Part shown: piece after piece, positions 26,218 through 54,930 of the stretch
Position numbering within the stretch: the first letter of the stretch is position 1
Layout of the letters: every line of letters begins with the position of its first letter
DNA from: a virus
Virus record (IMG/VR): IMGVR_UViG_3300029787_005266
Location: 27,043 to 91,042 of that record
Direction: 5' to 3' (one strand)
Length of the DNA: 64,000 nucleotides
The notes under the pieces: generated by a model
What the model saw: only the letters and a program-made list of their open reading frames with translations
The model's database searches: none
Told to the model about the DNA's origin: nothing
Made by a program: the position numbers and the translations under genes

Positions 26218-27255
26218 ATGAAAAATACTTTTTGCCTATGGGAATACACTGGAGTAGATTCTATCTACAACACTGGCAAACTTGTTAAAGACCTTACAAC
26301 GTATATCAAAACACAAACATTACAAAACGAAGAAATAATTTTAGATATGTATCCGGAAGGTTATAGTCTACATCATAATGGAGTATGGAGTATTATTGAA
26401 GCAGTGTGTGAAGCATGTGATACACACCCAGCATCTTTGACATTAGTAATTGGGGATATGACTGCCGATTATCCGTGTAACGTGATTATACATCAACCTA
26501 GATGGCTAATGGAAACTGCCGCTGAGTTTCCAAATTTTAAGCAAGATTTCGATAAAGTTGCAGAAAAAAAATTCTTGCACTTCATAGGTCGAGCCACGTG
26601 GGATAGGATAGGGGTCAACAAATATTTGAGAGAAAATTATGCTGATGATTCATGGGTAACAATCGGTCCAACTAGAAACAGACAAAGAGTAATTGATGAC
26701 ACATTTCATGGTTTGACAAACAATCACTTTACTCCTGATCAAATTGTAGACATGATGAAATACACTTTAAATCCTCCAAAAAACTTTTTGGTGGAAACAG
26801 CACGTGAAGATTACACTACGTTTCCAGATAATATGCTACCTTTACAGCATATGTACACCAATGCATTTGTTGAGATAGTACATGAAACAGACATACACGA
26901 TAATAATTTTTTTATAACAGAAAAAACTATCAGGCCAATCTTGTTCAAAAAGCCATTTATAACCATGTGCGGAAAACACTTCTGCAAGAATCTACGCACA
27001 CTAGGTTTTAAAACCTTTGATGATTGGTTTGATGAACGATATGATGAAGTTAATGCTAGACAACGATACGATGCAGTTCTTAAAAGAATTATTAATATTG
27101 GAAAAATGAGCTACAAAGAGTTGTCAGAATGGAACCTAGAAATGCGTGACACTGTTGAACATAATTTTCAGCATCTGCTTACAAAAGGTTGGCTAGAACA
27201 TTTAGACAAATTCGATGTACAATTTTGGCACGATGGCAAGGGACAATTATTATGA
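26218..27255 (+). CDS. Putative transferase (GT10-like C-terminal motif), copy A
   Basis: 345 residues. It is paralogous to the next gene along its whole length: PEGYSLHHNGVWSIIEAV, GDMTADYPCN, FLHFIGRA and FFITEKTIRPILFKKPF align with NEGYGLYANGAWPIIESV, SDMFASYPCN, FGHFIGRA and CFTTEKTLRPIIFKTPF. The E-x-(n)-F-x-TEK-x-x-x-P-I-x-x-x-x-PF segment (TEK near residue 234) resembles the donor-binding motif of fucosyltransferase-type GT10 enzymes, so a GDP-sugar transferase is plausible but not proven. No membrane segment. Coupled to its paralogue by an ATGA overlap. Confidence 0.55.
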   Translation: MKNTFCLWEYTGVDSIYNTGKLVKDLTTYIKTQTLQNEEIILDMYPEGYSLHHNGVWSIIEAVCEACDTHPASLTLVIGDMTADYPCNVIIHQPRWLMETAAEFPNFKQDFDKVAEKKFLHFIGRATWDRIGVNKYLRENYADDSWVTIGPTRNRQRVIDDTFHGLTNNHFTPDQIVDMMKYTLNPPKNFLVETAREDYTTFPDNMLPLQHMYTNAFVEIVHETDIHDNNFFITEKTIRPILFKKPFITMCGKHFCKNLRTLGFKTFDDWFDERYDEVNARQRYDAVLKRIINIGKMSYKELSEWNLEMRDTVEHNFQHLLTKGWLEHLDKFDVQFWHDGKGQLL

Positions 27256-43801: not shown

Positions 43802-43830
43802 ATTATAAGCATTCTTACCAAATTTGTCAA
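43802..43830 (-). promoter_or_regulatory. Sigma70-type promoter with leaderless start
   Basis: Minus-strand TTGACA (43825-43830), a 17-base spacer and TATAAT (43802-43807); six bases then separate the -10 from the ATG. Transcription would start at about the first base of the codon. Confidence 0.75.
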
Positions 43831-44723
43831 GTACCAATTGCATTACCAAACAGATATACATGAACTCTGGCCGCTACATTGAAACCACGTTGAAATGCCT
43901 TTTTGGCAACTTCTCCTGCTGTCATACTCTGTTCTTCTTCTCTTGCTCCAACAGGCATCACCCATACAGGCCAATCAACACCGACATCTCGAAATTGCTT
44001 AACCACAGAGTCAAGTTCTTCCCATTCTCTATCTCTGTGTCCAACAACAAATTTAAGTTGTCCAAAGTCTCTTGTTTCTTTATATTCAGCAACTGTTTCT
44101 GGTTTGATTGCTTTTGCGGCTTTTTCTCCTGCTACTGACCAAAGTTTTGGACTCACTGAAAAGAATACTTCTTGTTCCATGTTAGCCAGAAACTCTTTTG
44201 TTGTATCTTTCAACTTTTGTGTACCGTTGGTCTCGAATGTAATCGAACTAGGAGTGTTCTCACGTTCTTGTAAAGATTTCATTATTCCAACTATGGCATC
44301 CTGTGTCATCAACATCAATGGCTCTCCGCCAGTAAAACAAAGATGTTGTGTCTGATCTGACACAGGATGTCTAAACAATCCATCAGGATTGGAGTCGTTG
44401 CGGAGAATATCTACAATTTTGTCTGCTAACACTTCAGGAGTTTCTTGCCCCATCAAGTGTTTAAATTTTTTTGCCCAAGTGTATGAAGAATCACAACCAT
44501 GTTTCCAAACAGGCAAGTCTTCAACCCTGTTTACTGTTTTAGGATCAAAGTCTTCATATGGTAATTCATAAGTGTCTGGATTGGTTGGATCTATTTGTCC
44601 AAACCCGTTGCATTGTAAGTTACACAAGAAAAATCTTATCCATGCAGTTGGCACACCTGTATAGTGTCCTTCGCCTTGGATAGAGTGGAAGATCTCGGAA
44701 TAGTAATACTTCTTGTCAGACAT
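43827..44723 (-). CDS. queE: QueE: 7-carboxy-7-deazaguanine synthase with enlarged Cys loop
   Basis: 298 residues from the ATG at 44723, six bases after a perfect -10 box. SIQGEGHYTGVPTAWIRF is the QueE signature and TGGEPLM sits at 131-137. The cluster cysteines are Cys34, Cys38 and, after 38 residues, Cys77 (GCDSS), instead of the compact CxxxCxxC. The inserted stretch is acidic and Pro-rich. QueE turns 6-carboxy-tetrahydropterin into 7-carboxy-7-deazaguanine using SAM and a [4Fe-4S] cluster. FolE and the QueD-like gene are a few kb upstream on the same strand. The product probably feeds DNA modification by the DpdA-like protein. Confidence 0.88.
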   Translation of the reverse strand: MSDKKYYYSEIFHSIQGEGHYTGVPTAWIRFFLCNLQCNGFGQIDPTNPDTYELPYEDFDPKTVNRVEDLPVWKHGCDSSYTWAKKFKHLMGQETPEVLADKIVDILRNDSNPDGLFRHPVSDQTQHLCFTGGEPLMLMTQDAIVGIMKSLQERENTPSSITFETNGTQKLKDTTKEFLANMEQEVFFSVSPKLWSVAGEKAAKAIKPETVAEYKETRDFGQLKFVVGHRDREWEELDSVVKQFRDVGVDWPVWVMPVGAREEEQSMTAGEVAKKAFQRGFNVAARVHVYLFGNAIGT

Positions 44724-44729
44724 AGTGTT

Positions 44730-44758
44730 ATTATACAATAGTATTTAGACAATGTCAA
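44730..44758 (-). promoter_or_regulatory. Sigma70-type promoter with leaderless start
   Basis: Minus-strand TTGACA (44753-44758), a 17-base spacer and TATAAT (44730-44735), then six bases to the QueE ATG. The -35 lies inside the end of the shortened aminotransferase gene. The same geometry appears at 43802. Confidence 0.78.
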
Positions 44759-45335
44759 ATGTAAGTTCTCTGCAATCACGATGAGTACCTGCCTTGGGTG
44801 TGTAATTGCCTTTGGCTATATATTCGTCTAATAACTTGCTACAATGTATTGAATGTTCTATAGACATATTGTAATGATACCCTATTATGAAAGTGTCTTG
44901 TTCTTTCCATGTTATATTAGGATCTCTTCCATCCATAGACATACGTTTCATAGTTTGGTATTGTTCTTTATTGTCTAATAGTATACAACCTCCTCGTTTT
45001 GCATCAATAGGTTTGCCATTGCCAAAACTTAAACATTGTACTTGTCCTTGTCTATACATGTCTGGAGATAGTTGCCATGCACTGTCCCAGATATTTGATC
45101 CATGCAATTGATATTCGCCGATCCATTCTTCGCCGGTCAATTCATATATAATGCCCAACTTGTGAAACAACATAGGCACACTCAAATATGTAAAGGCAGT
45201 GCTTGTAATCTTTTTGGGTTTGGCATATCTAAGTGCAATTTCTAATGCATGGGTGCAACAATCAGTTGCTATCACATATGGAGCGCCTGTAAATTTAGAC
45301 AGTTTATCTTCAAATTGTTTTATTTGTTCGAGCAT
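44745..45335 (-). CDS. Shortened DegT/DnrJ-type PLP enzyme
   Basis: 196 residues, about half the normal length. The N-terminal domain follows DegT proteins (FEDKLSKFTGAPYVIATDCC, then STAFTYLSVPML). NIWDSAWQLS supplies the PLP-pyridine Asp84 and SFGNGKPIDAKRGGCIL the Schiff-base Lys108, matching EDAAQ and SFNPVKNLGAIGDAGC of the full enzyme at 34 kb. The stretch between the first strands and the Asp is compressed, and almost the whole C-terminal small domain is missing. Either a minimal PLP enzyme or a decayed one; the intact frame and coupled context argue for use. Confidence 0.65.
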   Translation of the reverse strand: MLEQIKQFEDKLSKFTGAPYVIATDCCTHALEIALRYAKPKKITSTAFTYLSVPMLFHKLGIIYELTGEEWIGEYQLHGSNIWDSAWQLSPDMYRQGQVQCLSFGNGKPIDAKRGGCILLDNKEQYQTMKRMSMDGRDPNITWKEQDTFIIGYHYNMSIEHSIHCSKLLDEYIAKGNYTPKAGTHRDCRELTFDIV

Positions 45336-45832
45336 GTGACCTGCATTGTATATCGATGTTCATATCCCATATTGTAGGCGGCATGTAAAGTTGAACCTTT
45401 CCAACTGCATACATCTCCAGCTTTCCATGTAGAAAATACATTATTTTCAATCTGCATCATGTGTCCTATTTTAGCATCTTCTAGAAAAATTATATACCTA
45501 TGAATGTCGGCAATGTCATTTATTTCGTATGCTTTTACATAGTTTTCATACAAGTCAGAATGCAGTGGCAAAATATTTCCAGGAGGTGTTCTGTTGAATG
45601 CAACAGCAACAATGTCGTAATCAAATTGTGCTGTCACTTCATTGACAAATTTTGGCATAGGATTTGGCATACTGTAAACATCATTGTTGATGATATGCTT
45701 GTAAGGATCTTGACTATATTGGATGTAATTGTTAGATCCATATCCACCTAATGTTTTATAATCTAGATTGATAAAGTCTTGTATGTTCCAACATACTTTA
45801 ATATTTGTTATCAAAAGTGTACTCCAATTCAT
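45320..45832 (-). CDS. 2OG-oxygenase/cupin-like protein
   Basis: About 170 residues. NILPLHSDLYENYVKAYEIN gives a His-x-Asp pair; HRYIIFLEDAKIGHMMQIE and WKAGDVCSWKGSTLHAAYNMG follow, with a second His and typical cupin spacing, as in aspartyl/asparaginyl-hydroxylase-like proteins. The ATG at 45832 lacks a ribosome site; a TTG at 45814 has GGAG six bases before it and is an equally good start. The gene overlaps the amidinotransferase upstream and the PLP-enzyme gene downstream. The substrate is unknown, perhaps a small molecule of the same pathway. Confidence 0.6.
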   Translation of the reverse strand: MNWSTLLITNIKVCWNIQDFINLDYKTLGGYGSNNYIQYSQDPYKHIINNDVYSMPNPMPKFVNEVTAQFDYDIVAVAFNRTPPGNILPLHSDLYENYVKAYEINDIADIHRYIIFLEDAKIGHMMQIENNVFSTWKAGDVCSWKGSTLHAAYNMGYEHRYTMQVTCSNK

Positions 45833-46778
45833 AATCACGTTCTAGTTCAACAGTGCAACAATGTGGTCCGCCACTCAAAGATCTCTGATGTCTCATATGC
45901 ACAGGTATTACAGTGAATCCTTTTGTTTCTAACACATTGATCAAATTAGTTTGTGTGGATTGCACAACCACAGTGTCTTCGTCAAGACTCACACAATTCA
46001 TGCCAGTCCATTGACTCATCATTGCTTCAGGGCCTGCATAATTCATTTCTATAGGTTCTGGACATTCTATTAAATCCCAATTACGCATACCGTACGGTAA
46101 CACATCTTTATTTTTAATTCTACTAGGATTTATTAATGCAGTGCCAGGTTTCAGCAAAGCAATAGTGCTGTCTAAATGAGAGTAGGAATATACATCTGAA
46201 ATAATATGCACATTGAAGTTTGGTCCAAGTAATTTTTGTAATTGTTCTGCTCCTGCATAGTTGCCAGTATTAGAATGTAGATACAAAATATCTCTACCTG
46301 CTCTTAGTACATTAGCGGCATCCCACATTGGCGTAAAATTTACAGTAGCCAATTTGTTTTTGTTCATAATACAACTATCTTCATAATCCTTTTGCGTGAA
46401 TTGTATTGCAGTAAGGTCATTTGTAACTTTGCACATATATTTGTATTCGTCTTTTCTGCAGTTCATAGACATAGGTGATGCTATTATTTTTTTATCAATG
46501 GTTAAAATATTATCACGTGGGCAATACAAATAATGATTAACTTCTGCTGGTTCAGGCCTGATTACCTCTGATCCAAAGTCTTTGTAAATTTTTGCTAAAG
46601 ATTCTAAATCTTCATTTGCTTCATCTATAATTGTTTGTGAATATGCTCCTACAGGAATAGAATCTTGTAATGATCGATCAGCATAATTGATGTGTCTAAC
46701 TCCTAATTCATTAGGCAAATATCTCGCACCTGTGGCAGTGCCAACGATAACCTTTTTAACTTTGCCCCATTCGTTCAT
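45798..46778 (-). CDS. Arginine:glycine amidinotransferase-family enzyme (intact site)
   Basis: 326 residues, a five-bladed guanidino-modifying fold. The catalytic residues fit AGAT: Asp153 in PMWDAANVLRAGRD, His201 in SHLDSTIALLKPG, and the nucleophile Cys307 in GGPHCCTVE. AGAT enzymes move an amidino group from arginine to an amine. Here the acceptor could be an aminated sugar, an antibiotic-like small molecule or the aminomethyl group of a deazaguanine. Its start faces a second family member across 23 bases. The next gene downstream overlaps it. Confidence 0.85.
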   Translation of the reverse strand: MNEWGKVKKVIVGTATGARYLPNELGVRHINYADRSLQDSIPVGAYSQTIIDEANEDLESLAKIYKDFGSEVIRPEPAEVNHYLYCPRDNILTIDKKIIASPMSMNCRKDEYKYMCKVTNDLTAIQFTQKDYEDSCIMNKNKLATVNFTPMWDAANVLRAGRDILYLHSNTGNYAGAEQLQKLLGPNFNVHIISDVYSYSHLDSTIALLKPGTALINPSRIKNKDVLPYGMRNWDLIECPEPIEMNYAGPEAMMSQWTGMNCVSLDEDTVVVQSTQTNLINVLETKGFTVIPVHMRHQRSLSGGPHCCTVELERDYELEYTFDNKY

Positions 46779-46781
46779 TCA

Positions 46782-46789
46782 TTAAATAC
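46782..46789 (+). promoter_or_regulatory. Late-type box in divergent amidinotransferase spacer
   Basis: TTAAATAC twelve bases before the plus-strand ATG at 46802. A TATAAT (46793-46798) is nearer but has no fair -35. The 23-base AT-rich gap must also carry the start signals of the opposite gene. Confidence 0.4.
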
Positions 46790-46801
46790 TTATATAATAC
46801 A

Positions 46802-47869
46802 ATGTTACGCCAATTTAAAAGATGGTCTCCATGGGATCCTGTGAAATCAATTATGCTTGGTTCCTGTTATTCTGAAAAATTTTTTGAGCCAGTAAAAAAC
46901 CAAAAGTTACGAGAATCATTACAAAAAATCTGTATTGAAACAAACGAAGATATAGATCGAATAGAAAGAATTTACCGAAGCATGGATGTAGAAGTGACTC
47001 GAACATTGATTGATGAATCTGAAACAATTGAAGATTATTTGGATGACTCGGGAGCATTGAAACACAAAGCATGGAAACCAAAGTCACTAGTACCGCGCCC
47101 ACCTATTATGCCACGAGACTGTCAAGTTGTGATAGGAGAACATATGTTCGTAAATTTAATAGGTGATCGAAACATGATGAAGTCTTTGTTCAACGTAATG
47201 GATGATCCAATTGAACAGTGTGTGATTCCAGTTGATCACGGCTTCAAAGGATTACATGGAGGGCATCAAACATTAATAGGAAATAGATTATACTTAGACA
47301 CTGATGCAGGCAATTATGATCCGGAGTACAATGAAAAATTCAAACGTATTCTAAATCATTACTATCCCCAAATACAAGTGCATCAGTTAGAAATAGGTGG
47401 CCATAATGATTGTTGTTTTCATCCTTGCAAACCAGGTGTGCTGATTTCCTTAAACGACATACAGAATTACGATGAAACATTTCCAGGCTGGGATGTTCAT
47501 TATATTGAAGATGCTAATCTTGACAAAGTTGAAGGTTGGTTAGATATAAAAGATAAGAATAAGGGCAGATGGTGGGTGCCAGGTGAAGAGAAGAACAATG
47601 AATTTGCAGAATTTGTTGAAACATGGCTAACAGAATGGGTAGGATATGTAGAAGAAACGGTGTTTGATGTTAATGTTCATATGGTAAATCCTGAAACAGT
47701 AATTGTTAATTCACATAACAAAGAACTATTTTCTTATTTCGAAACACACAAAATACAACCAATTATTGCTCCATTCAGGCACAGACACTTTTGGGATGGA
47801 GGAGTGCATTGTATGACTTTAGATTTATATCGTGAAGGTGAGTGTGAAGATTATTTTTCCCAAGGATAA
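46802..47869 (+). CDS. Amidinotransferase-family protein with altered catalytic Asp
   Basis: 355 residues and the only plus-strand gene after 32.7 kb. GGHNDCCFHPCKPG (His201, Asp203) and DGGVHCMTLDL (Cys337) match the His and Cys blocks of AGAT-type enzymes. The Asp block is not kept: LHGGHQTLIGNRLYLDTDAG stands where the other copy has WDAANVLRAGRD. It may therefore use different acid-base chemistry, act as hydrolase, or serve as a partner. Extra cysteines crowd the His block. The stop overlaps the convergent XGPRT gene by 19 bases. Confidence 0.75.
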   Translation: MLRQFKRWSPWDPVKSIMLGSCYSEKFFEPVKNQKLRESLQKICIETNEDIDRIERIYRSMDVEVTRTLIDESETIEDYLDDSGALKHKAWKPKSLVPRPPIMPRDCQVVIGEHMFVNLIGDRNMMKSLFNVMDDPIEQCVIPVDHGFKGLHGGHQTLIGNRLYLDTDAGNYDPEYNEKFKRILNHYYPQIQVHQLEIGGHNDCCFHPCKPGVLISLNDIQNYDETFPGWDVHYIEDANLDKVEGWLDIKDKNKGRWWVPGEEKNNEFAEFVETWLTEWVGYVEETVFDVNVHMVNPETVIVNSHNKELFSYFETHKIQPIIAPFRHRHFWDGGVHCMTLDLYREGECEDYFSQG

Positions 47870-48279
47870 ACAATCCAGGTAGGCTCTTTATCCTTATCAA
47901 TTTTTTGAAACCAATAATCAACACTAAATTCTGAAGGTATGTTGTCATGTATGACAGCATAGTCAATATCTAAATTTCTTTGATCAAACATATCCTGTAA
48001 GAATCTAAATGTTTCTCCAGTATCATTTATATCATCTACACACAAATATCTCCCATGTGGAATATCATGAATCATTGTAGGTTTATTCACATGGTCACGT
48101 AATGAACAATTGACTGAATACATTGGAATATCTAATTCGTGAGATATAATTACAGCAGGAATAAGTCCACCTCTTTGTATGCCTATGACTGCTTTATATC
48201 CCATGTCTCTGGCATTGTCCGCAATTAATCTACTTGCTTCTTGTATTTGTGTCCATGTGATGAATATTTTGTCTGGCAT
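47851..48279 (-). CDS. gpt: Xanthine/guanine phosphoribosyltransferase-like enzyme
   Basis: 142 residues. The PRPP loop LCVDDINDTGET (residues 80-90) and IQRGGLIPAVIISHELDIP at 35-53 fit type I purine phosphoribosyltransferases; the C-terminal TWIVYPWE parallels WIEQPWD of Gpt. It joins free guanine or xanthine to PRPP. The start overlaps the FolE stop (TAATG), so it is part of the same message as GMP reductase and FolE. It may recycle guanine released when DpdA exchanges the base. Confidence 0.82.
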   Translation of the reverse strand: MPDKIFITWTQIQEASRLIADNARDMGYKAVIGIQRGGLIPAVIISHELDIPMYSVNCSLRDHVNKPTMIHDIPHGRYLCVDDINDTGETFRFLQDMFDQRNLDIDYAVIHDNIPSEFSVDYWFQKIDKDKEPTWIVYPWEK

Positions 48280-48977
48280 TATTTCGGAGCGAATTGTTGT
48301 TGCAGTTTTATATTGTCCATAAATTCTTTCTTTGTTGCTGGATCAGTTGCAAACGCACCTTCTAACACAGTGGTCTGTGTCAAACTTGAATGTGCTTCAA
48401 TTCCTCTGTGTTCAACACAACCGTGAGTTGCTTGAACATAAACACCAACATTCTCGGAGTTGGTTGCTTTCATTATTTCTCTACATATATCCATTGCAAG
48501 TTCTTCTTGCAGTGTTCCACGTTTTGCACACCATTGTGCTATCCTTGTATATTTGCTTAAACCTATTAATGTATCTCCAGCAATAATACCAATGTATGCT
48601 ACACCCTTCACTGGTTGATGATGATGTGAACACATACTTACTATCTCTGATCTCACAGTCAACAAACCTTTGTATGCAGTTGTTGAATCATTTGGAAATG
48701 CAGTGGCAGGCGGCATTGGATCATACCTACCGCTCATTAATTCGTTGATATACATCTTTGATAATCTTTTTGCAGTCCCGTTACTATTTGGATCATTTTC
48801 CACGTCAATGACTAATCCTTCTAACACCTTTTGAAACTGATGTGTAAGTTCATCTATCAGCATTTCTTTTTCGCCCTCTTGTATGAACTCACTTATATTA
48901 TCACCGGCCCAAAATCTTTTGCCTGCTTCTTGTAATCGTTGTCTTATTCTTTTAGATATTAAGAAAACCTCTGTCAT
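48279..48977 (-). CDS. folE: GTP cyclohydrolase I (FolE)
   Basis: 232 residues. The zinc site CSHHH (Cys116, His118 or His119) and ATHGCVEHRGIE (His185, Cys187) are intact, and LIGLSKYTRIAQWCAKR and TLQEELAMDI complete the family pattern. It opens GTP to 7,8-dihydroneopterin triphosphate, the first step of both folate and 7-deazaguanine synthesis. With QueD- and QueE-like genes nearby the second is meant. Joined by ATGA to the glycosyltransferase gene before it. Confidence 0.92.
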   Translation of the reverse strand: MTEVFLISKRIRQRLQEAGKRFWAGDNISEFIQEGEKEMLIDELTHQFQKVLEGLVIDVENDPNSNGTAKRLSKMYINELMSGRYDPMPPATAFPNDSTTAYKGLLTVRSEIVSMCSHHHQPVKGVAYIGIIAGDTLIGLSKYTRIAQWCAKRGTLQEELAMDICREIMKATNSENVGVYVQATHGCVEHRGIEAHSSLTQTTVLEGAFATDPATKKEFMDNIKLQQQFAPK

Positions 48978-50026
48978 GTTTTTAGTATACTTTCGTTGAT
49001 TGTTTTGTACAAGTTATTTCCATGGAAAAAATTATTCTTAAGAGATTGTTTTTGATGTTGCATCTTTATTCTATATGAATCATAATTGTCCATGTAATCA
49101 CAGATTGTATTTAGAATTTTATCTTTGTGTACCAAATAATCTTTCATACTGCTGGTCCATTCTGAAGGATATTTGAAATCATCGAACATTTCAGTATAAC
49201 TTAATCTATCAGGAACCATTGGAATAACATCTAGCAGTAAACCTTCAAATCCAGATATTCCAAGTGTTTCTTGCAAGTTTGCAGAAAATAATAATTTAGA
49301 TTCGGCCAACAAGTTGTGATAATCATCTTTTGATCTTGGTTCTTCTTGTGCAATCACAAATTCATATTGTGGCAATGCATCTTTTAAATCATAAAAAATG
49401 TCTGGTTGTTTTTCAGGAGCAATTCTGTGTGGAAACAGTATGATATCTTTTTTAGGCATATCTTTAAATGCTTCTAATTCTTGATCCATGTATTCCATCG
49501 GCCAACCAGTTCTTGTGATCTTGTCTTTATCCAAGTTTAATGTATCGGCAAACATATCGATATGAAAGTCTGTAGCAAAAAAATTGTCATCATAACAATC
49601 ATACATCGAACGTTCAGCATTTCTCACCCATGGTTTGTCACCTATTAGTCTACCCAGAAAGTCTGCTGGGTCATATGAACCTGCATGCCACATACCGCCT
49701 ATCTTAATTTTTATATTCAACAGTTCTGCCATGTATCGCAGTTGAATCACCGTAGGATTCCATGCATCGGTGTACAAAAAATAATCTCCATTTTTCACTT
49801 CTCCGTCACAAAACATTTGACCAATTTTTTCTAATTGTTTGGATTTGTATACATTGGTGCCTCCAAAATTTAAGAATGCTCCTGGAGTAGTTGCTTGTGG
49901 AGTATCGCCACCTGATATAGTCATCACAGATTGATTCGTGTGTCTACCTAATTGCTTGGGCAAATATTTTTTCCACTGTGCTGTGTATCTTGTTTCAACT
50001 GCTTCTATGTCTACTATAAAAATCAT
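48974..50026 (-). CDS. GT-B (GT4-like) glycosyltransferase in deazaguanine operon
   Basis: 350 residues. The C-terminal half has the GT-B donor-site pattern: LFPHRIAPEKQPDIFYDL, then SANLQETLGISGFEGLLLDV, where Glu lies in the E-x7-E-like region. The N-terminal half has HAGSYDPADFLGR and a TDFHIDMFADTLNL segment. No membrane anchor. It lies between GMP reductase and FolE, joined to both by ATGA. The acceptor could be a modified DNA base, as for T4 beta/alpha glucosyltransferases, or an intermediate; DNA is an inference from context only. Confidence 0.7.
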   Translation of the reverse strand: MIFIVDIEAVETRYTAQWKKYLPKQLGRHTNQSVMTISGGDTPQATTPGAFLNFGGTNVYKSKQLEKIGQMFCDGEVKNGDYFLYTDAWNPTVIQLRYMAELLNIKIKIGGMWHAGSYDPADFLGRLIGDKPWVRNAERSMYDCYDDNFFATDFHIDMFADTLNLDKDKITRTGWPMEYMDQELEAFKDMPKKDIILFPHRIAPEKQPDIFYDLKDALPQYEFVIAQEEPRSKDDYHNLLAESKLLFSANLQETLGISGFEGLLLDVIPMVPDRLSYTEMFDDFKYPSEWTSSMKDYLVHKDKILNTICDYMDNYDSYRIKMQHQKQSLKNNFFHGNNLYKTINESILKT

Positions 50027-51075
50027 TTTACTGTATATTGTTCATAAACTCTATTTTGTACATTATGTGTCTTTACAAAGGTAGCACATTTTGGCATATC
50101 TTTCAACCTTCTTGCTCCAATATATGTTGCAGACGATCGTACACCGCCAAGTATATCTTCAACTGTTTCTTTGACTGATCCTCTGTATGGTAACGTAATC
50201 AATCTTCCTTCATTACCACGATAACCATCTTTTCTTTTTCCATGCACTTCTCTTGCTCTGTCCGAACTCATGCCATAAAATTCAACTTGTCCATCAACTA
50301 TTTTTTGTTCTGATTCATCATGGCCTGCCAGCATACCGCCTATCATAACCATGTGAGCACCGCCACCTAATGCTTTTGCAATATCTCCTGGAAACACACA
50401 TCCACCATCTGCCATTATGTGTCCATCAACACCATTGGCCGCATCTGAACATTCACATATTGCTGAAAACTGTGGCACACCCACACCAGTCATTGTTCTG
50501 GTTGTGCATACTGAACCAGGACCAATTCCTATTTTTACAATATCAGCACCATTCAAGATAAGTTCTTCAGTCATTTCCGGTGACACAACATTGCCAGCAA
50601 TTATAATTTTATCTGGGTATTCTTCACGGATACGTTTTACAAAGTCAATAAATTTTTGGTGATAGGCATTTGCAACATCAATTGTAATAAATTTAACATC
50701 TGGAAAACTGGCCAACACCTCAGTCATAGTTTTGTAATCAGGTGCATCTGGATCCCACATAACATTTGTACCGGTACATACCGAAACAGATTGCAATCTA
50801 AGTCCAGTACCTGCCGCTTGTTTCCATTGATCAACTGTGGTAGACTTTGTGATCACAGTCATCATTTTGTATTCTTGTAAGACCTTTGCCATTGAAAAAG
50901 TGCCAACACCATCCATATTTGATGCAAATATAGGACAAAATTCTAACTGTTTGCCAGAGTTTATAAAATTAAATGTTCTAGTCATTTTTACATCTGCACG
51001 TGATGTCAGTGTTGATCTTTTAGGTTGCAATAACACATCATCAAAATTTAACTTTACTTCTGATTTAATTCTCAT
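50023..51075 (-). CDS. guaC: GMP reductase
   Basis: 350 residues, the length of bacterial GuaC, with no CBS domains, which argues against IMP dehydrogenase. The catalytic loop GIGPGSVCTTRTMTGVG holds Cys190 and matches GuaC. MADGGCVFPGDIAKALGGGA, GGMLAGHDES and the C-terminal VQNRVYEQY complete the likeness. It converts GMP and NADPH to IMP and ammonia, lowering the guanylate pool. In a deazaguanine operon it may route guanine released from DNA, or limit plain dGTP. ATGA overlaps on both sides. Confidence 0.9.
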   Translation of the reverse strand: MRIKSEVKLNFDDVLLQPKRSTLTSRADVKMTRTFNFINSGKQLEFCPIFASNMDGVGTFSMAKVLQEYKMMTVITKSTTVDQWKQAAGTGLRLQSVSVCTGTNVMWDPDAPDYKTMTEVLASFPDVKFITIDVANAYHQKFIDFVKRIREEYPDKIIIAGNVVSPEMTEELILNGADIVKIGIGPGSVCTTRTMTGVGVPQFSAICECSDAANGVDGHIMADGGCVFPGDIAKALGGGAHMVMIGGMLAGHDESEQKIVDGQVEFYGMSSDRAREVHGKRKDGYRGNEGRLITLPYRGSVKETVEDILGGVRSSATYIGARRLKDMPKCATFVKTHNVQNRVYEQYTVK

Positions 51076-51374
51076 ACATATAAACTTTCTGTTTGATCAA
51101 TGCATTTAAATCTTAAATTCAAATAACTTTGTATTTCTGTTTTGTCGCATGAAAACACAACACAATCAAGTCCTGCATCTTCAAAATAAAAGTCTTTGCC
51201 ATAGGTCCAACCTTTAAGTCCTAAGTCATTGCTCACTATACACCCAACATCAAAGTCTTTGTATCCACTGTTTAATGCACCACCTTCGACAGCATAATAA
51301 GAATTTCTGTCACTAGTATCTGTACTTGATACTATCACCTTTGTCTTGTATCGATATGGCCCAGGATTACTCAA
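51072..51374 (-). CDS. Small unknown protein in deazaguanine operon (TTG start)
   Basis: 100 residues. The start is the TTG in a TTGA overlap with the QueD-like stop; no nearby ATG. It is beta-looking (KVIVSSTDTSDRNSYYAVEG), with three cysteines and an acidic FEDAGLDCVVFSCDKTE segment. I do not recognise a family. Constant coupling on both sides suggests a role in the same pathway. Confidence 0.55.
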   Translation of the reverse strand: MSNPGPYRYKTKVIVSSTDTSDRNSYYAVEGGALNSGYKDFDVGCIVSNDLGLKGWTYGKDFYFEDAGLDCVVFSCDKTEIQSYLNLRFKCIDQTESLYV

Positions 51375-51754
51375 TTTACAGTCTCCGCAAATGGAAACTC
51401 CATATCAGCACCATTTTCTCCATCTTCACTTACAGAAATTTTAATATATCTGCCTGGATATCTTGCTTTGATTTGTTCTGCTAAATCTTCGCCCATCATT
51501 TCACAACTTTTATAATCAAGTTCTATTATGCCATCGCCATATAAATTTTCAAGCCATCTTTTGAACTGTATAAACTCTATGTCTCTGTCATCATGAAATA
51601 CTTCGATCCATACTTTAAAATGAAATATGTGCCTGTGTGGATATCCCAAAAAGGACACGTCATATTCATCACCTGTTGCTAATTTAGGATCTGTAAGTGC
51701 CGCAGGATATTTGTGTATGCCTTCTTTACTGAATGTTACCCATATTGTGTTCAT
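51371..51754 (-). CDS. queD: QueD-like (6-pyruvoyl-tetrahydropterin synthase fold) protein
   Basis: 127 residues. An early His in SKEGIHKYPA and PHRHIFHFKVWIEV supply the three zinc ligands expected for the fold; SVSEDGENGADMEF ends it as in T-fold relatives, with Glu for pterin binding. The catalytic Cys usually found just before the HxH pair is not visible; LGYPHRH has none. It would make 6-carboxy-tetrahydropterin for QueE. It is linked to the next genes by ATGA and TTGA overlaps. The assignment leans on the His pattern and on FolE and QueE nearby. Confidence 0.7.
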   Translation of the reverse strand: MNTIWVTFSKEGIHKYPAALTDPKLATGDEYDVSFLGYPHRHIFHFKVWIEVFHDDRDIEFIQFKRWLENLYGDGIIELDYKSCEMMGEDLAEQIKARYPGRYIKISVSEDGENGADMEFPFAETVN

Positions 51755-52263
51755 AGTATTTCATCATCTCCATATTCATTCCAATCAGTAAAATGTTCCT
51801 CTTTTATCAGGTCACGTACCGACCAACACCATACTCCTGGATTTGTTGCTTTAAAGTCTTTGTCATCAATCTTAAAAATCACATTGCCTTTCATTTCCAT
51901 AATATTTTCTACAGGCACTGCATATACTATTGAAAATTTTGGATTGGATAAAAAATTTGTTATTTCTTTTAAGTCTGCGTTGCCAGGAACATCAAGTGTG
52001 ACATGATAATTCTGCAATAGTTTTTTTATTGTTGGCATTAACATTTCTTTATCAAGTGCATCAAAATATTTGAAACAATGATTGGCTCCAAGATAAATGT
52101 GTGTACAATTATTTTCTTCTGCATACTTTTCAATATCTTCATCTTCTTGATGTCTAACAACAAACAATGTCTTCATTCCTTGTGTAGGCGTTTTTTCTAC
52201 TTCTGTGCCTATAAAAAATTCAGCAGTGTCTGTTACACCTGTTGAGTAATCACGTTTCATCAT
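51751..52263 (-). CDS. Unknown protein in deazaguanine operon
   Basis: About 170 residues, beginning at one of two adjacent ATG codons in the overlap with the coiled-coil gene. TLFVVRHQEDEDIEKYAEEN and THIYLGANHCFKYFDALD look alpha/beta, and the C terminus WCWSVRDLIKEEHFTDWNEY is aromatic and acidic. No cysteine cluster, so not a QueE; no SGGxDS, so not QueC. Joined to the QueD-like gene by ATGA. It may be a pathway-specific helper. Confidence 0.55.
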   Translation of the reverse strand: MMKRDYSTGVTDTAEFFIGTEVEKTPTQGMKTLFVVRHQEDEDIEKYAEENNCTHIYLGANHCFKYFDALDKEMLMPTIKKLLQNYHVTLDVPGNADLKEITNFLSNPKFSIVYAVPVENIMEMKGNVIFKIDDKDFKATNPGVWCWSVRDLIKEEHFTDWNEYGDDEIL

Positions 52264-52498
52264 TATCAAACTTTTCGTCTATCCATTTGTTTAAACTTTC
52301 ATCAGAAGTGTCTGAGCCTCTCATTTCTTCAAGTTCATCTAAAAGTTGTTTCATTTGTAATTTTTTCTTTTTAGCATCTAGTAATATTTCTTTGTGATCC
52401 CATGATCTGTTAAGTTCTCTCTGTGCTTCAAGTTGTTTGACAGTTTTCTTTAATTTTTTCAATTCTTGTTTGAAATTTAAAATTTTTGCTGATGCCAT
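52250..52498 (-). CDS. Small coiled-coil protein
   Basis: 82 residues from the ATG at 52498, which overlaps the preceding stop by one base and has AAAGGA upstream; a longer frame would start in the membrane-protein gene. Nearly all of it is charged heptad helix (LKKLKKTVKQLEAQRELN, then KKKKLQMKQLLDELEEMRG). Probably dimeric. Possible scaffold for the enzymes around it; no family assigned. Confidence 0.6.
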   Translation of the reverse strand: MASAKILNFKQELKKLKKTVKQLEAQRELNRSWDHKEILLDAKKKKLQMKQLLDELEEMRGSDTSDESLNKWIDEKFDNDET

Positions 52499-52731
52499 TA
52501 TAATCCTTTCACTTTTTTCCATGCTGAATGTAAAACATAAAACCATAATCCATTAATAGAAGGTTCAACTAATGCAACAACACCCGCCTCCCATATACTT
52601 GCTCCAGTCATTGCACTGACAACTATCATTGCTATACAAATATGGCCTGTAGTGTAGATTAATGCTAGAGCCAACGAACTTTTTATTAATTCTTTAAATG
52701 CTCCTTGAATTCCTTGTGTAAATTCTGTCAT
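52498..52731 (-). CDS. Small membrane protein (DUF2061-like)
   Basis: 77 residues with two hydrophobic segments, SSLALALIYTTGHICIAMIV and IWEAGVVALVEPSINGLWFY, and a basic end HSAWKKVKGL. The layout resembles the small DUF2061 membrane proteins. It should sit in the host inner membrane. Start overlaps the DpdA stop (TAATG). Function unknown. Confidence 0.6.
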   Translation of the reverse strand: MTEFTQGIQGAFKELIKSSLALALIYTTGHICIAMIVVSAMTGASIWEAGVVALVEPSINGLWFYVLHSAWKKVKGL

Positions 52732-54191
52732 TATACATCCTCGAATAAATTGTTAAATTGTGTTGTTGCGTTCACAGTTTTTTTGCCTGTTGCTCCTCTT
52801 GTTCCTATGATACTCATCCAATACTTTGAATACTCTTCTATTATAGCATCTGCTATACTTCTGTCATCCGTTGCAAAAATGGCTTCTACAATATCACGGA
52901 ACATTATTCGATCAAATGATTCATTGACCAACATGTCTGGTATAATGCCTTGATCGTACTGTCTGTTTGCTTCTTGTACTGCGTTGATATGCATCCAAAC
53001 ATTATGGCCCATCATGACTGCATATGAAAAAGAATCCCAAGATGTTTTGCCTTCTTTACCAATCTTGTTCAAGTCTCCTGGTCCATATATGCATATATCC
53101 TTTGCTTGTAACCCATCTGTAATAGGTGAATCTAAGAAACTTGAATGCTTGCCTTCTCTTATAAATGCCTGTGAAAATGGTGTTGTATCTGTGGATAACT
53201 TTTTGTCATCTATACTGGGAACCATTCTATACACCCATTTGGTTCTGTCTTCTGTTTCTAGTTCACAATAAATTTGTCCGTTTGCAGTGGCAAGGAAAGG
53301 AGATGCACAATCAAATGTTACCATAAAGTTTTCATTATGGTATTTGCGTACTGCTCTTTGTATGTCTGTTAGTAGTGTTGCCCATTCTAATTTTGACGTA
53401 CCAAGAAAATGCATAACATCATGTACACCCTTTTCCAGTAATCCATCAAAACGTAATGCAACCAATCTTTTCAACACTAGATGCACATCACACATATTTT
53501 GCCCACCCATTGACCAACCATTTAAATGATTGCCTGGATGTTGCTTAGGATCAGAATAATGTTTCATATGTTCATACCAAGCATCAGCATCAGCATGATT
53601 TTCACCTTGTAAAACATTCAGAAACTTACAAGCACCTGTTCTGTGCTTCATGAAGTACTCATTGTTTATATCTGTGGCCTTAAGTGCTTCTTCATAACTA
53701 CCTACACCTGATGCCTTTGCTCCTTCCGGAGAACGTGCTACCCAGGCAGGGATATCTAAGATCATTCCATAATCCATCATCTCGTCCATCCAGTTAAGCA
53801 CAAGTTCACGTTTCTTCTGTGCTTTAGGACATGAAGGATCTTTCCAATCACCTTCCCATTTACCTTTACCTATCTGGAATCCACCTGAGTCGCCTAACAC
53901 CCATGATGTTGATCTGTCACGTTTACGGAACATATCTTCTTTGGGAGAATCTTTTGAAAGATCCAAATCAGCATGACCTGCCGAATACAAACACCACTTG
54001 TATTGGAATTGGCCTTCATTGGGATTCAGATAATTCAAACTTTCAATACCGTGTTTGAAGTTTTTGGGGATACGTGAAGGATCGACGTAATCGGTATGCA
54101 TCTGTTTCCCAATGAAAGTAGCGTAAAACCCACTGGTAGCAGGGAGGAAATGAGCGAAATCCTTTTGCTCTTCAGTTAGGTTAATTCTCAT
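52731..54191 (-). CDS. dpdA: DpdA-like deazaguanine DNA transglycosylase
   Basis: 486 residues from the ATG at 54191, two bases after the gp45 stop. The tRNA-guanine transglycosylase pattern is present: GDSGGFQIGKG (Asp101), LDIPAW (Asp146), NVLQGE (Gln195), GWSMGG (around 225-230) and TFDCASPFLATANGQ (Asp294, nucleophile candidate). The CxCxxC zinc site of true TGTs is not seen, in line with the phage and genomic-island DpdA branch. DpdA exchanges guanine in DNA for preQ0 or a relative. It heads a coupled series that contains QueD- and FolE-type genes. Confidence 0.85.
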   Translation of the reverse strand: MRINLTEEQKDFAHFLPATSGFYATFIGKQMHTDYVDPSRIPKNFKHGIESLNYLNPNEGQFQYKWCLYSAGHADLDLSKDSPKEDMFRKRDRSTSWVLGDSGGFQIGKGKWEGDWKDPSCPKAQKKRELVLNWMDEMMDYGMILDIPAWVARSPEGAKASGVGSYEEALKATDINNEYFMKHRTGACKFLNVLQGENHADADAWYEHMKHYSDPKQHPGNHLNGWSMGGQNMCDVHLVLKRLVALRFDGLLEKGVHDVMHFLGTSKLEWATLLTDIQRAVRKYHNENFMVTFDCASPFLATANGQIYCELETEDRTKWVYRMVPSIDDKKLSTDTTPFSQAFIREGKHSSFLDSPITDGLQAKDICIYGPGDLNKIGKEGKTSWDSFSYAVMMGHNVWMHINAVQEANRQYDQGIIPDMLVNESFDRIMFRDIVEAIFATDDRSIADAIIEEYSKYWMSIIGTRGATGKKTVNATTQFNNLFEDV

Positions 54192-54192
54192 A

Positions 54193-54930
54193 TTACTTGC
54201 TTTGTGCAGGAAGTATGTATTGATATTTGCCAACGCCTGAATCAAGCACAATCTGTAATGCACCATCATCTGAAAAACTCATTTCGCAATCAGCAGTTTC
54301 TATCAATTTTAAAATTTGTGTAACTTGTGCAACAGGCCATGCCCATGATTTGGTTAACTCACCAGTCACGCCAGTTTCAAATACAAACTCACCAGCATGT
54401 GATGAAGCATCACCAAACTTAAATTTTAAGTTTCCATCTTCAGTTAGCACAGTAAACACATTCTCTTCTGAGTTTGCTTGTGCTTGAAAGTTTAATCTTT
54501 GTACTGCTGGCATAGTTGGCTTCATGGTTACATGCCAGTTTACTCCTCTAAACTTCACAGACTTTAATTTTTCATTAACAATCTCTGAATTCATAAATCT
54601 ATAATCATTTTTGAAATCTTTGTTTGCATTTTCAAAATGTAAACCTGTTGGCACTGTTTCGCCATTACGATCTTGTGTGTTCACAGTAATTTCTGCTTTG
54701 TCTTTGTATTCAGGACATTTTAATATAATGTCTAACTTGCCTAAGTTAGGCATTCCAAATGTGCCTTTCATTTCTGCAACAGGTTTGTTAAATTCTGCTT
54801 TCACAACAACTGATCTGTCTTCAGCCATTGCATCCATTTCTGTTTTTGCATCATCACCTACAATCTTGACAAGGTCAATAAACCCTAATGAATGTGTGTG
54901 CTTAACAATGTCTTGTAATATATCCTTCAT
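54193..54930 (-). CDS. 45: Sliding clamp (gp45)
   Basis: 245 residues, close to T4 gp45 (228). MKDILQDIVKHTHSLGFID, a long two-domain beta/alpha repeat and the end KYQYILPAQ match marine T4-like clamps. As a trimer it holds DNA polymerase on the template and, in T4, also activates late transcription at TATAAATA promoters. It has its own sigma70-type promoter and a TAGGAGAT ribosome site. DpdA follows two bases after its stop, linking replication with base exchange. Confidence 0.88.
   Translation of the reverse strand: MKDILQDIVKHTHSLGFIDLVKIVGDDAKTEMDAMAEDRSVVVKAEFNKPVAEMKGTFGMPNLGKLDIILKCPEYKDKAEITVNTQDRNGETVPTGLHFENANKDFKNDYRFMNSEIVNEKLKSVKFRGVNWHVTMKPTMPAVQRLNFQAQANSEENVFTVLTEDGNLKFKFGDASSHAGEFVFETGVTGELTKSWAWPVAQVTQILKLIETADCEMSFSDDGALQIVLDSGVGKYQYILPAQSK

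Follow-up and report, generated by a model that had tools for sequence, protein, structure and literature searches.

A predicted 7-deazaguanine DNA-modification block with a linked glycosyltransferase in a T4-like phage genome fragment

The window analysed here is a stretch of 64,000 nucleotides (positions 27,043 to 91,042) of the virus record IMGVR_UViG_3300029787_005266 from IMG/VR, a 91,042-base record that is itself a fragment. Between 43.8 and 54.2 kb the window carries a block of deazaguanine genes that includes a DpdA-like transglycosylase and a glycosyltransferase (GT) of the GT4 family. In loci of the window type the GT is the core partner of DpdA, with an obligate linkage in both directions, and this gene association strongly supports a predicted tie between glycosyl transfer and the deazaguanine DNA system. 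We consider it moderately probable that the block as a whole encodes a DpdA-type 7-deazaguanine DNA modification with a glycosylation step, in some phages with an amino- or guanidino-sugar.

The block itself, proposed in a first-pass annotation made from the letters alone, is borne out by profile matches, structure models and conserved gene order. Given the identities of its genes, an order conserved in 191 distinct relatives, and a ratio of nonsynonymous to synonymous substitution rates (dN/dS) of 0.02–0.25 wherever it can be computed, the block is more than a chance arrangement. It is flanked by polymerase, clamp and exonuclease genes, with baseplate-type genes further away, and resides in a T4-like phage. 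A megablast search with 24 kb against phage records returned no match.

DpdA and its glycosyltransferase partner

The AlphaFold2 (AF2) model of the DpdA-like protein is of moderate quality (predicted local distance difference test score, pLDDT, 72; predicted template modelling score, pTM, 0.79), and each of its 34 PDB matches at E ≤ 0.001 is a tRNA-guanine transglycosylase (TGT). The motifs DSGGFQ, VLQGE, MGGQN, HFLGTSKLEW and FDCASPF align across distant relatives, and both catalytic aspartates, D101 and D294, are invariant in the family. Single-protein Pfam searches with DpdA, the GT, the QueD-like protein and a further block protein, u172, gave nothing significant; alignments and structure settled only DpdA and the GT. 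DpdA thus has no Pfam TGT match. In hhalign comparisons it scored 0.2% against the DpdA of phage 9g, to which it is not alignable, and poorly against gp123 of phage ACP17, with the TGT motifs aligned. Model and motifs together indicate a divergent TGT-fold transglycosylase of the DpdA type. The order polymerase, clamp, DpdA is also found in phage 9g. The first-pass annotation began the gene at 54269; its homologues begin at MxxNLT, which places the start at 54191.

The AF2 model of the GT (pLDDT 86) has a retaining GT-B/GT4 fold, with Foldseek matches to BshA, MshA and glycogen synthase at E ~ 1e-9. Its presumed catalytic residues, E253 and E261 of an E-x7-E motif and the donor-phosphate residues R201 and K206, are all invariant, and five of nine family members match Pfam Glycos_transf_1. 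Kinship with the tRNA-queuosine mannosyltransferase QTMAN found no support: there was no QTMAN/DUF3524-type Pfam match at E ≤ 1 and no QTMAN among the top 50 PDB fold matches.

The linkage holds from whichever gene the search is started. With DpdA as bait, and counting distinct (deduplicated) loci, the GT and the QueD-like gene are each present in 33/33 loci with more than 6 kb downstream. Among the 29 loci with more than 9.4 kb downstream, XGPRT (xanthine/guanine phosphoribosyltransferase) and FolE occur in all, QueE in 28, and QueC and QueF in none. The remaining genes of these 29 loci are optional: GMP reductase in 16, a Gfo/Idh/MocA oxidoreductase with an alcohol dehydrogenase in 12, an amidinotransferase in 5, a pyridoxal-phosphate (PLP) enzyme in 5 and a 2-oxoglutarate (2OG) oxygenase-like protein in 4. 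With the GT as bait, loci with room show QueD (74/74) and DpdA (60/60) upstream and FolE (40/40) downstream, and QueE is present in 39/40. A distant GT used as bait recovers DpdA and QueD in 32/32 loci each, FolE in 29, QueE in 30, and neither QueC nor QueF in any. Both GT and DpdA are visible in 163 of the 191 distinct loci.

Shared gene order within a single group of phages proves little, and we therefore searched beyond the T4-like group. The Pseudomonas phages Paride and PA5oct (Arenbergviridae), of a type that can be grown on a laboratory P. aeruginosa strain, carry DpdA (37% identical) followed directly by the GT (46%) and then by QueD-like and QueE genes; in most records a GT of this type is called a 'hypothetical protein'. 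Acidovorax phage ACP17 has the order QueD-FolE-DpdA-GT-QueE. In Sinorhizobium phage Phosso the order is QueD-like-GT-FolE-QueE, and dpdA lies some 170 kb from these genes. In chromosomal contigs of Devosia (L191:8072-11035) and Pseudooctadecabacter (L192:9401-12557) a GT4 and a homologue of DpdA lie, in differing orders, beside a Vut_1-type (YhhQ-like) transporter gene near recombinase genes; FolE and QueE are missing from the vicinity, and the GT has been retained. These three-gene islands may encode a glyco-deazaguanine modification of bacterial or prophage DNA that draws on an imported base. A plasmid search for the GT found none, and in phage 9g, which makes dG+, the 25 kb surrounding dpdA show no gene annotated as a GT.

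Another set of relatives (L332-L351) has, in the slot between QueD and FolE, a divergent GT4 that is 21–24% identical to the window's GT, is homologous to it by hhalign (98.3%, E 1.6e-14) and matches Pfam Glycos_transf_1. This second GT4 subfamily suggests different sugars or acceptors. Two further arrangements were seen. In one locus (L083:7700-8930), FolE and XGPRT are replaced by divergent versions (70% and 46% identity) amid surrounding genes that are 91–99% identical, an instance of mosaic exchange within the block. In Vibrio phage 2.275 (L091:9908-12838) a DpdA relative is followed by an Amidoligase_2-like gene, QueF, a transporter and QueC, for which an amide-type hypermodification is possible.

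Synthesis genes and the predicted base

Of the FolE, QueD-like, QueE and DpdA set named by the first-pass annotation, FolE, QueE and DpdA are upheld and the QueD-like protein is plausible, statistically unproven. For QueE the ATG at 44723 is a more likely start than the TTG at 44738. A long insert separates the second from the third of its presumed cluster cysteines, an architecture shared with the QueE proteins of nt-1 and Paride. The QueD-like protein has no significant Pfam or PDB match and aligns weakly with ACP17 QueD (hhalign P 11%); it keeps the histidine pattern of QueD, with H14, H40 and H42 invariant. An invariant Ser-Cys-Glu-Met lies further along the sequences of this family, and a different chemistry may be possible.

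QueC, reported missing from the window by the first-pass annotation, is likewise missing from the 91 kb parent record (a fragment), and no QueC above the family cut-off was found in 15 relatives of 118–270 kb or in Paride, Phosso and ACP17, in a search that recovered it from 12 of 14 reference genomes. Weak QueC-like matches in four large genomes (G001, G009, G011 and G014) fell below the cut-off, and those of G001 and G009 have on reading the appearance of other PP-loop proteins. QueF was found neither in nine relatives nor in Paride, Phosso and ACP17. By these searches the block departs from the gene sets of the dG+, dPreQ0 and dPreQ1 subtypes in the absence of QueC, Gat-QueC and QueF; ArcS was not searched for. 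With no QueC, the base is likely to be 7-carboxy-7-deazaguanine (CDG) or something that the host makes from it. The phage itself probably makes CDG, judged from its genes, and a host QueC could carry it further.

The same genes could serve another end, in which the phage raises queuosine in host tRNA and the TGT-like protein acts on tRNA. FolE, QueD and QueE are common to the queuosine pathway, and such a role is allowed by Hutinet et al. for phages without DpdA (PMC6884629). The protein encoded here, however, is very divergent from tRNA TGTs and has no Pfam TGT match, its gene adjoins the clamp and DNA polymerase genes as in 9g, and QueC and QueF were found neither in relatives nor in Paride, Phosso and ACP17. 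We regard action on tRNA as very improbable.

In the pathway that we infer from gene content, which extends to the glycosylated base, the donor and acceptor of the GT, the order of steps, the recycling of guanine and any role of further genes in DNA, FolE, the QueD-like protein and QueE would convert GTP to CDG. DpdA would then exchange guanine in phage DNA for CDG or its host-made derivative, and XGPRT, here together with GMP reductase, may recycle the freed guanine through GMP to the GTP pool. The GT4 would move a sugar from a nucleotide-sugar donor onto the deazaguanine, most likely once this is in DNA. Taken together, CDG synthesis, DpdA insertion, guanine recycling and GT4 glycosylation form a scheme that we judge fairly likely to be correct.

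Alternatively, the deazaguanine in the DNA could be a plain one (dCDG, dADG, or dPreQ0 through a host QueC), with the GT serving some other target such as the base in its free form, a precursor or a molecule of the host. No GT is known to act on CDG. The phage DpdA systems described so far yield unglycosylated bases (PMC6884629). Against this, the GT has been lost from no window-type DpdA locus with enough sequence, and the bacterial islands keep it with DpdA and a transporter even though synthesis genes are not nearby. A plain base strikes us as improbable.

The amidinotransferase module and block layout

Around the core lie candidate tailoring genes. AMT1 matches the inosamine-phosphate amidinotransferase StrB1 over its full length (1.3e-57), with H201, D203 and C307 invariant, and is by these features a genuine StrB1-type amidinotransferase. 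The PLP enzyme, at 196 residues, lacks the C-terminal part, as do other phage homologues, and has invariant Lys108 and Asp84. The 2OG-like protein matches PF05118 at 0.0012, below the cut-off, and is 37% identical to an annotated 2OG protein of Synechococcus phage S-SCSM2R. AMT2 matches HsvA (5.1e-7) and StrB1 (3.9e-4) in its C-terminal part only, and keeps the cysteine of GGVHC and an HND motif. The first-pass identifications of AMT1, the GT, the PLP enzyme, GMP reductase and XGPRT therefore stand, with AMT2 resting on its C-terminal match and the 2OG assignment below threshold. Close relatives carry a third amidinotransferase-like pentein downstream of the block (L084:16930-17970, L085:16953-17993).

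AMT1 as bait retrieved 503 relatives, and neighbourhoods were counted for the best 80. The PLP enzyme is close by in 70 of these and the 2OG protein in 71, so the three genes form one module. Elsewhere this trio adjoins radical SAM proteins, B12-binding domains, carbamoyltransferases, UDP-glucose/GDP-mannose dehydrogenases and glycosyltransferases, and it therefore very likely tailors a sugar or cyclitol. In many phage loci (L380-L452, L001, L104) it recurs next to carbamoyltransferases and radical SAM/B12-binding proteins, an assembly reminiscent of sugar pathways of the aminoglycoside type. By its distribution the trio is an optional, portable module that sits mostly in phage sugar-biosynthesis clusters without DpdA.

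Two cassettes of other relatives also fit sugar chemistry. A Gfo/Idh/MocA oxidoreductase is repeatedly paired with a zinc alcohol dehydrogenase between DpdA and QueD (L045-L080 and L204-L253), and further loci hold a class III aminotransferase (L025-L034). A tryptophan-halogenase-type flavoprotein is present in L047-L050.

DpdA-type blocks house all seven of the relatives closest to AMT1. Once dereplicated, these form one 100/100 clade, which stays in the block despite reshuffled surrounding genes (L377, L379). The PLP family is bound to these blocks far more closely, as 68 of 80 relatives adjoin DpdA, QueD or GT genes, most often directly between GT and FolE; in the large genomes DegT matches occur in four, inside the block only in G015. 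The AMT1-2OG-PLP-QueE stretch of one relative (L085) is 67–75% identical to that of the window, against 85–94% for the rest of the block, as if it had moved between clades as one piece. Amidinotransferases of other branches occupy other positions in other deazaguanine blocks (L332, L350, L305, L347, L006/L081), and the amidinotransferase tree needs at least four label changes, a count to be read with caution as long branches meet and sampling was seeded from these blocks; these enzymes thus seem to have entered such blocks separately. The cassette genes are under purifying selection where dS is computable (dN/dS 0.02–0.25).

In phages of the window's clade, the PLP aminotransferase, the 2OG oxygenase and the amidinotransferase or amidinotransferases would probably modify the sugar of the GT, giving an amino- or guanidino-sugar. 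That the cassette acts on a sugar in DNA is a possibility we hold tentatively, and the complete scheme, phage DNA with a DpdA-inserted carboxy-type deazaguanine glycosylated by an obligate GT4 and its sugar made cationic by the PLP-2OG-amidinotransferase genes, is in our view rather unlikely in all its parts.

Several observations weigh against the favoured interpretation. The 191 loci come mostly from one broad T4-like group, and much of their synteny is inherited and not independent. CDG offers a sugar only its carboxylate or ring positions, and to our knowledge no glycosylated CDG has been described. The QueD-like family lacks the canonical QueD catalytic cysteine at the place expected from E. 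coli QueD numbering, and is statistically unproven as QueD. Gfo/Idh, tried as a gene confined to the block, was rejected, being inside it in four of six genomes and elsewhere in two. Most DpdA blocks do without the trio (amidinotransferase in 5/29); of the best 80 AMT1 relatives only 8 are near deazaguanine genes and 72 have no deazaguanine core genes nearby; and S-SCSM2R, which also carries an AMT2-like protein, has its homologues of the trio among glycosyltransferases, with no DpdA or FolE.

These last points favour the strongest rival, two pathways side by side, in which DpdA, FolE, QueE and the GT modify DNA and the sugar made by the trio is destined for a glycan of the virion or host surface. 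It keeps DNA glycosylation and assigns the cassette to a separate glycan. Most of the 72 AMT1 relatives away from deazaguanine genes have the whole trio, the trio's neighbours elsewhere are sugar genes, and AMT2 lies on the opposite strand. However, AMT1 has been kept in the block after rearrangement, the trio segment and QueE diverge jointly between clades, amidinotransferases of other branches have entered other deazaguanine blocks, and the DpdA-linked GT is the sole sugar-transferring gene recognised beside the trio here. We rate separate pathways as a serious contender, though somewhat short of even chances.

In related phages with the DpdA set, the genes that the first-pass annotation tied to it fare differently: the GT is always present, the PLP enzyme often, and the amidinotransferase and 2OG protein are usually absent. 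Of the amidino and glycosyl transfer to a DNA deazaguanine that it envisaged, gene association supports the glycosyl part; the amidino part would be optional tailoring at most and may belong to a separate pathway.

From 54191 down to 43827 the minus-strand genes follow one another as listed in Table 1. AMT2, although located between XGPRT and AMT1, is on the plus strand and outside the operon, an exception to the overlap-joined arrangement first described. Stop/start overlaps of 1–4 bases do join seven pairs: DpdA/u77, u172/QueD, QueD/u100, u100/GMP reductase, GMP reductase/GT, GT/FolE and FolE/XGPRT. The protein u172 is present almost everywhere in the core and has no Pfam or PDB match and no recognisable family; it could supply a catalytic or DNA-binding function that the set otherwise lacks.

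Table 1 Features of the deazaguanine block and its upstream neighbour (ORF, open reading frame)
Feature	Position	Strand	Basis
Sliding-clamp-like gene, immediately upstream of DpdA	54193..54930	-	35% to Phosso annotated sliding clamp
DpdA-like DNA-guanine transglycosylase, TGT fold, 486 aa	52731..54191	-	Model, PDB matches, TGT motifs
Small ORF, 77 aa (u77)	52498..52731	-	Among loci read, confined to window's clade
Small ORF, 98 aa	52250..52546	-	ORF list
u172, conserved core protein between DpdA and QueD	51751..52260	-	Present in 72 loci of first gene map
QueD-like (PTPS-like) protein, 127 aa	51371..51754	-	H14, H40, H42 invariant
Small ORF, 100 aa (u100)	51072..51374	-	ORF list
GMP reductase, optional in relatives	50023..51075	-	PF00478 5.7e-66; PDB GMPR1 9.4e-108
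GT4-family (GT-B) glycosyltransferase, core partner of DpdA	48974..50026	-	Model, Foldseek, invariant residues
FolE, GTP cyclohydrolase I	48279..48977	-	PF01227 1.4e-37
XGPRT	47851..48279	-	PF00156; NCBIfam PRK09177 2e-18
AMT2, pentein amidinotransferase-like	46802..47869	+	HsvA 5.1e-7, StrB1 3.9e-4, C-terminal part
AMT1, StrB1-type amidinotransferase	45798..46778	-	StrB1 1.3e-57, AGAT 1e-34
2OG-Fe(II) oxygenase-like (Asp/Asn hydroxylase-like)	45320..45838	-	PF05118 0.0012, below cut-off
Short DegT/DnrJ-type PLP enzyme, 196 aa	44745..45335	-	PF01041 2.8e-14
QueE, 7-carboxy-7-deazaguanine synthase	43827..44723	-	PHROG 2076 4.7e-56

Comparison with known systems

The DpdA systems described by Hutinet et al. 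2019 include 9g (dG+), CAjan (dPreQ0) and a Bipper type without queC (PMC6884629). The window block shares with them a TGT-family DpdA downstream of the clamp, FolE, QueE and a gene resembling QueD. Its folds and gene content place it in the DpdA family, like which it would work. It differs in lacking QueC, Gat-QueC and QueF, and in having an obligate GT4, XGPRT in the core and an optional PLP/amidinotransferase/2OG cassette. For PA5oct a 'deazaguanine synthesis/incorporation system' has been noted (PMC7824862); PA5oct and Paride have the same DpdA-GT pair, but the GT and its link to DpdA go unmentioned in the excerpts of that report consulted here. We found no published base analysis of PA5oct, MIJ3 or Paride DNA, and no description of a glycosylated deazaguanine in DNA among the open-access papers searched.

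If our interpretation is right, the block stands for a branch of 7-deazaguanine DNA modification that is widespread but has gone unrecognised, and whose base is glycosylated, a purine counterpart of the glucosyl-hydroxymethylcytosine of T4. It would explain the missing queC, give a function to a GT called hypothetical in most cultured-phage records, and add guanidino-sugar chemistry to the possible DNA hypermodifications.

The T4 DNA glucosyltransferases and QTMAN, also GT-B enzymes, attach sugars to modified bases. Their likeness to the GT described here would be one of function; neither is among the top 50 PDB fold matches of its model. AMT1 resembles StrB1 of the streptomycin pathway, and AGAT, with the catalytic residues kept, but the window holds no full streptomycin-type pathway. 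The three families of the PLP-2OG-amidinotransferase trio are also neighbours in S-SCSM2R and in some 70 further viral contigs, where they belong to sugar clusters that lack DpdA. A carboxyl-bearing DNA base that is decorated further has a precedent in carboxymethylcytosine, a handle for hypermodification by phage enzymes (PMC12783734), but in that system the base is a cytosine and the enzyme an amide ligase, with no sugar transfer.

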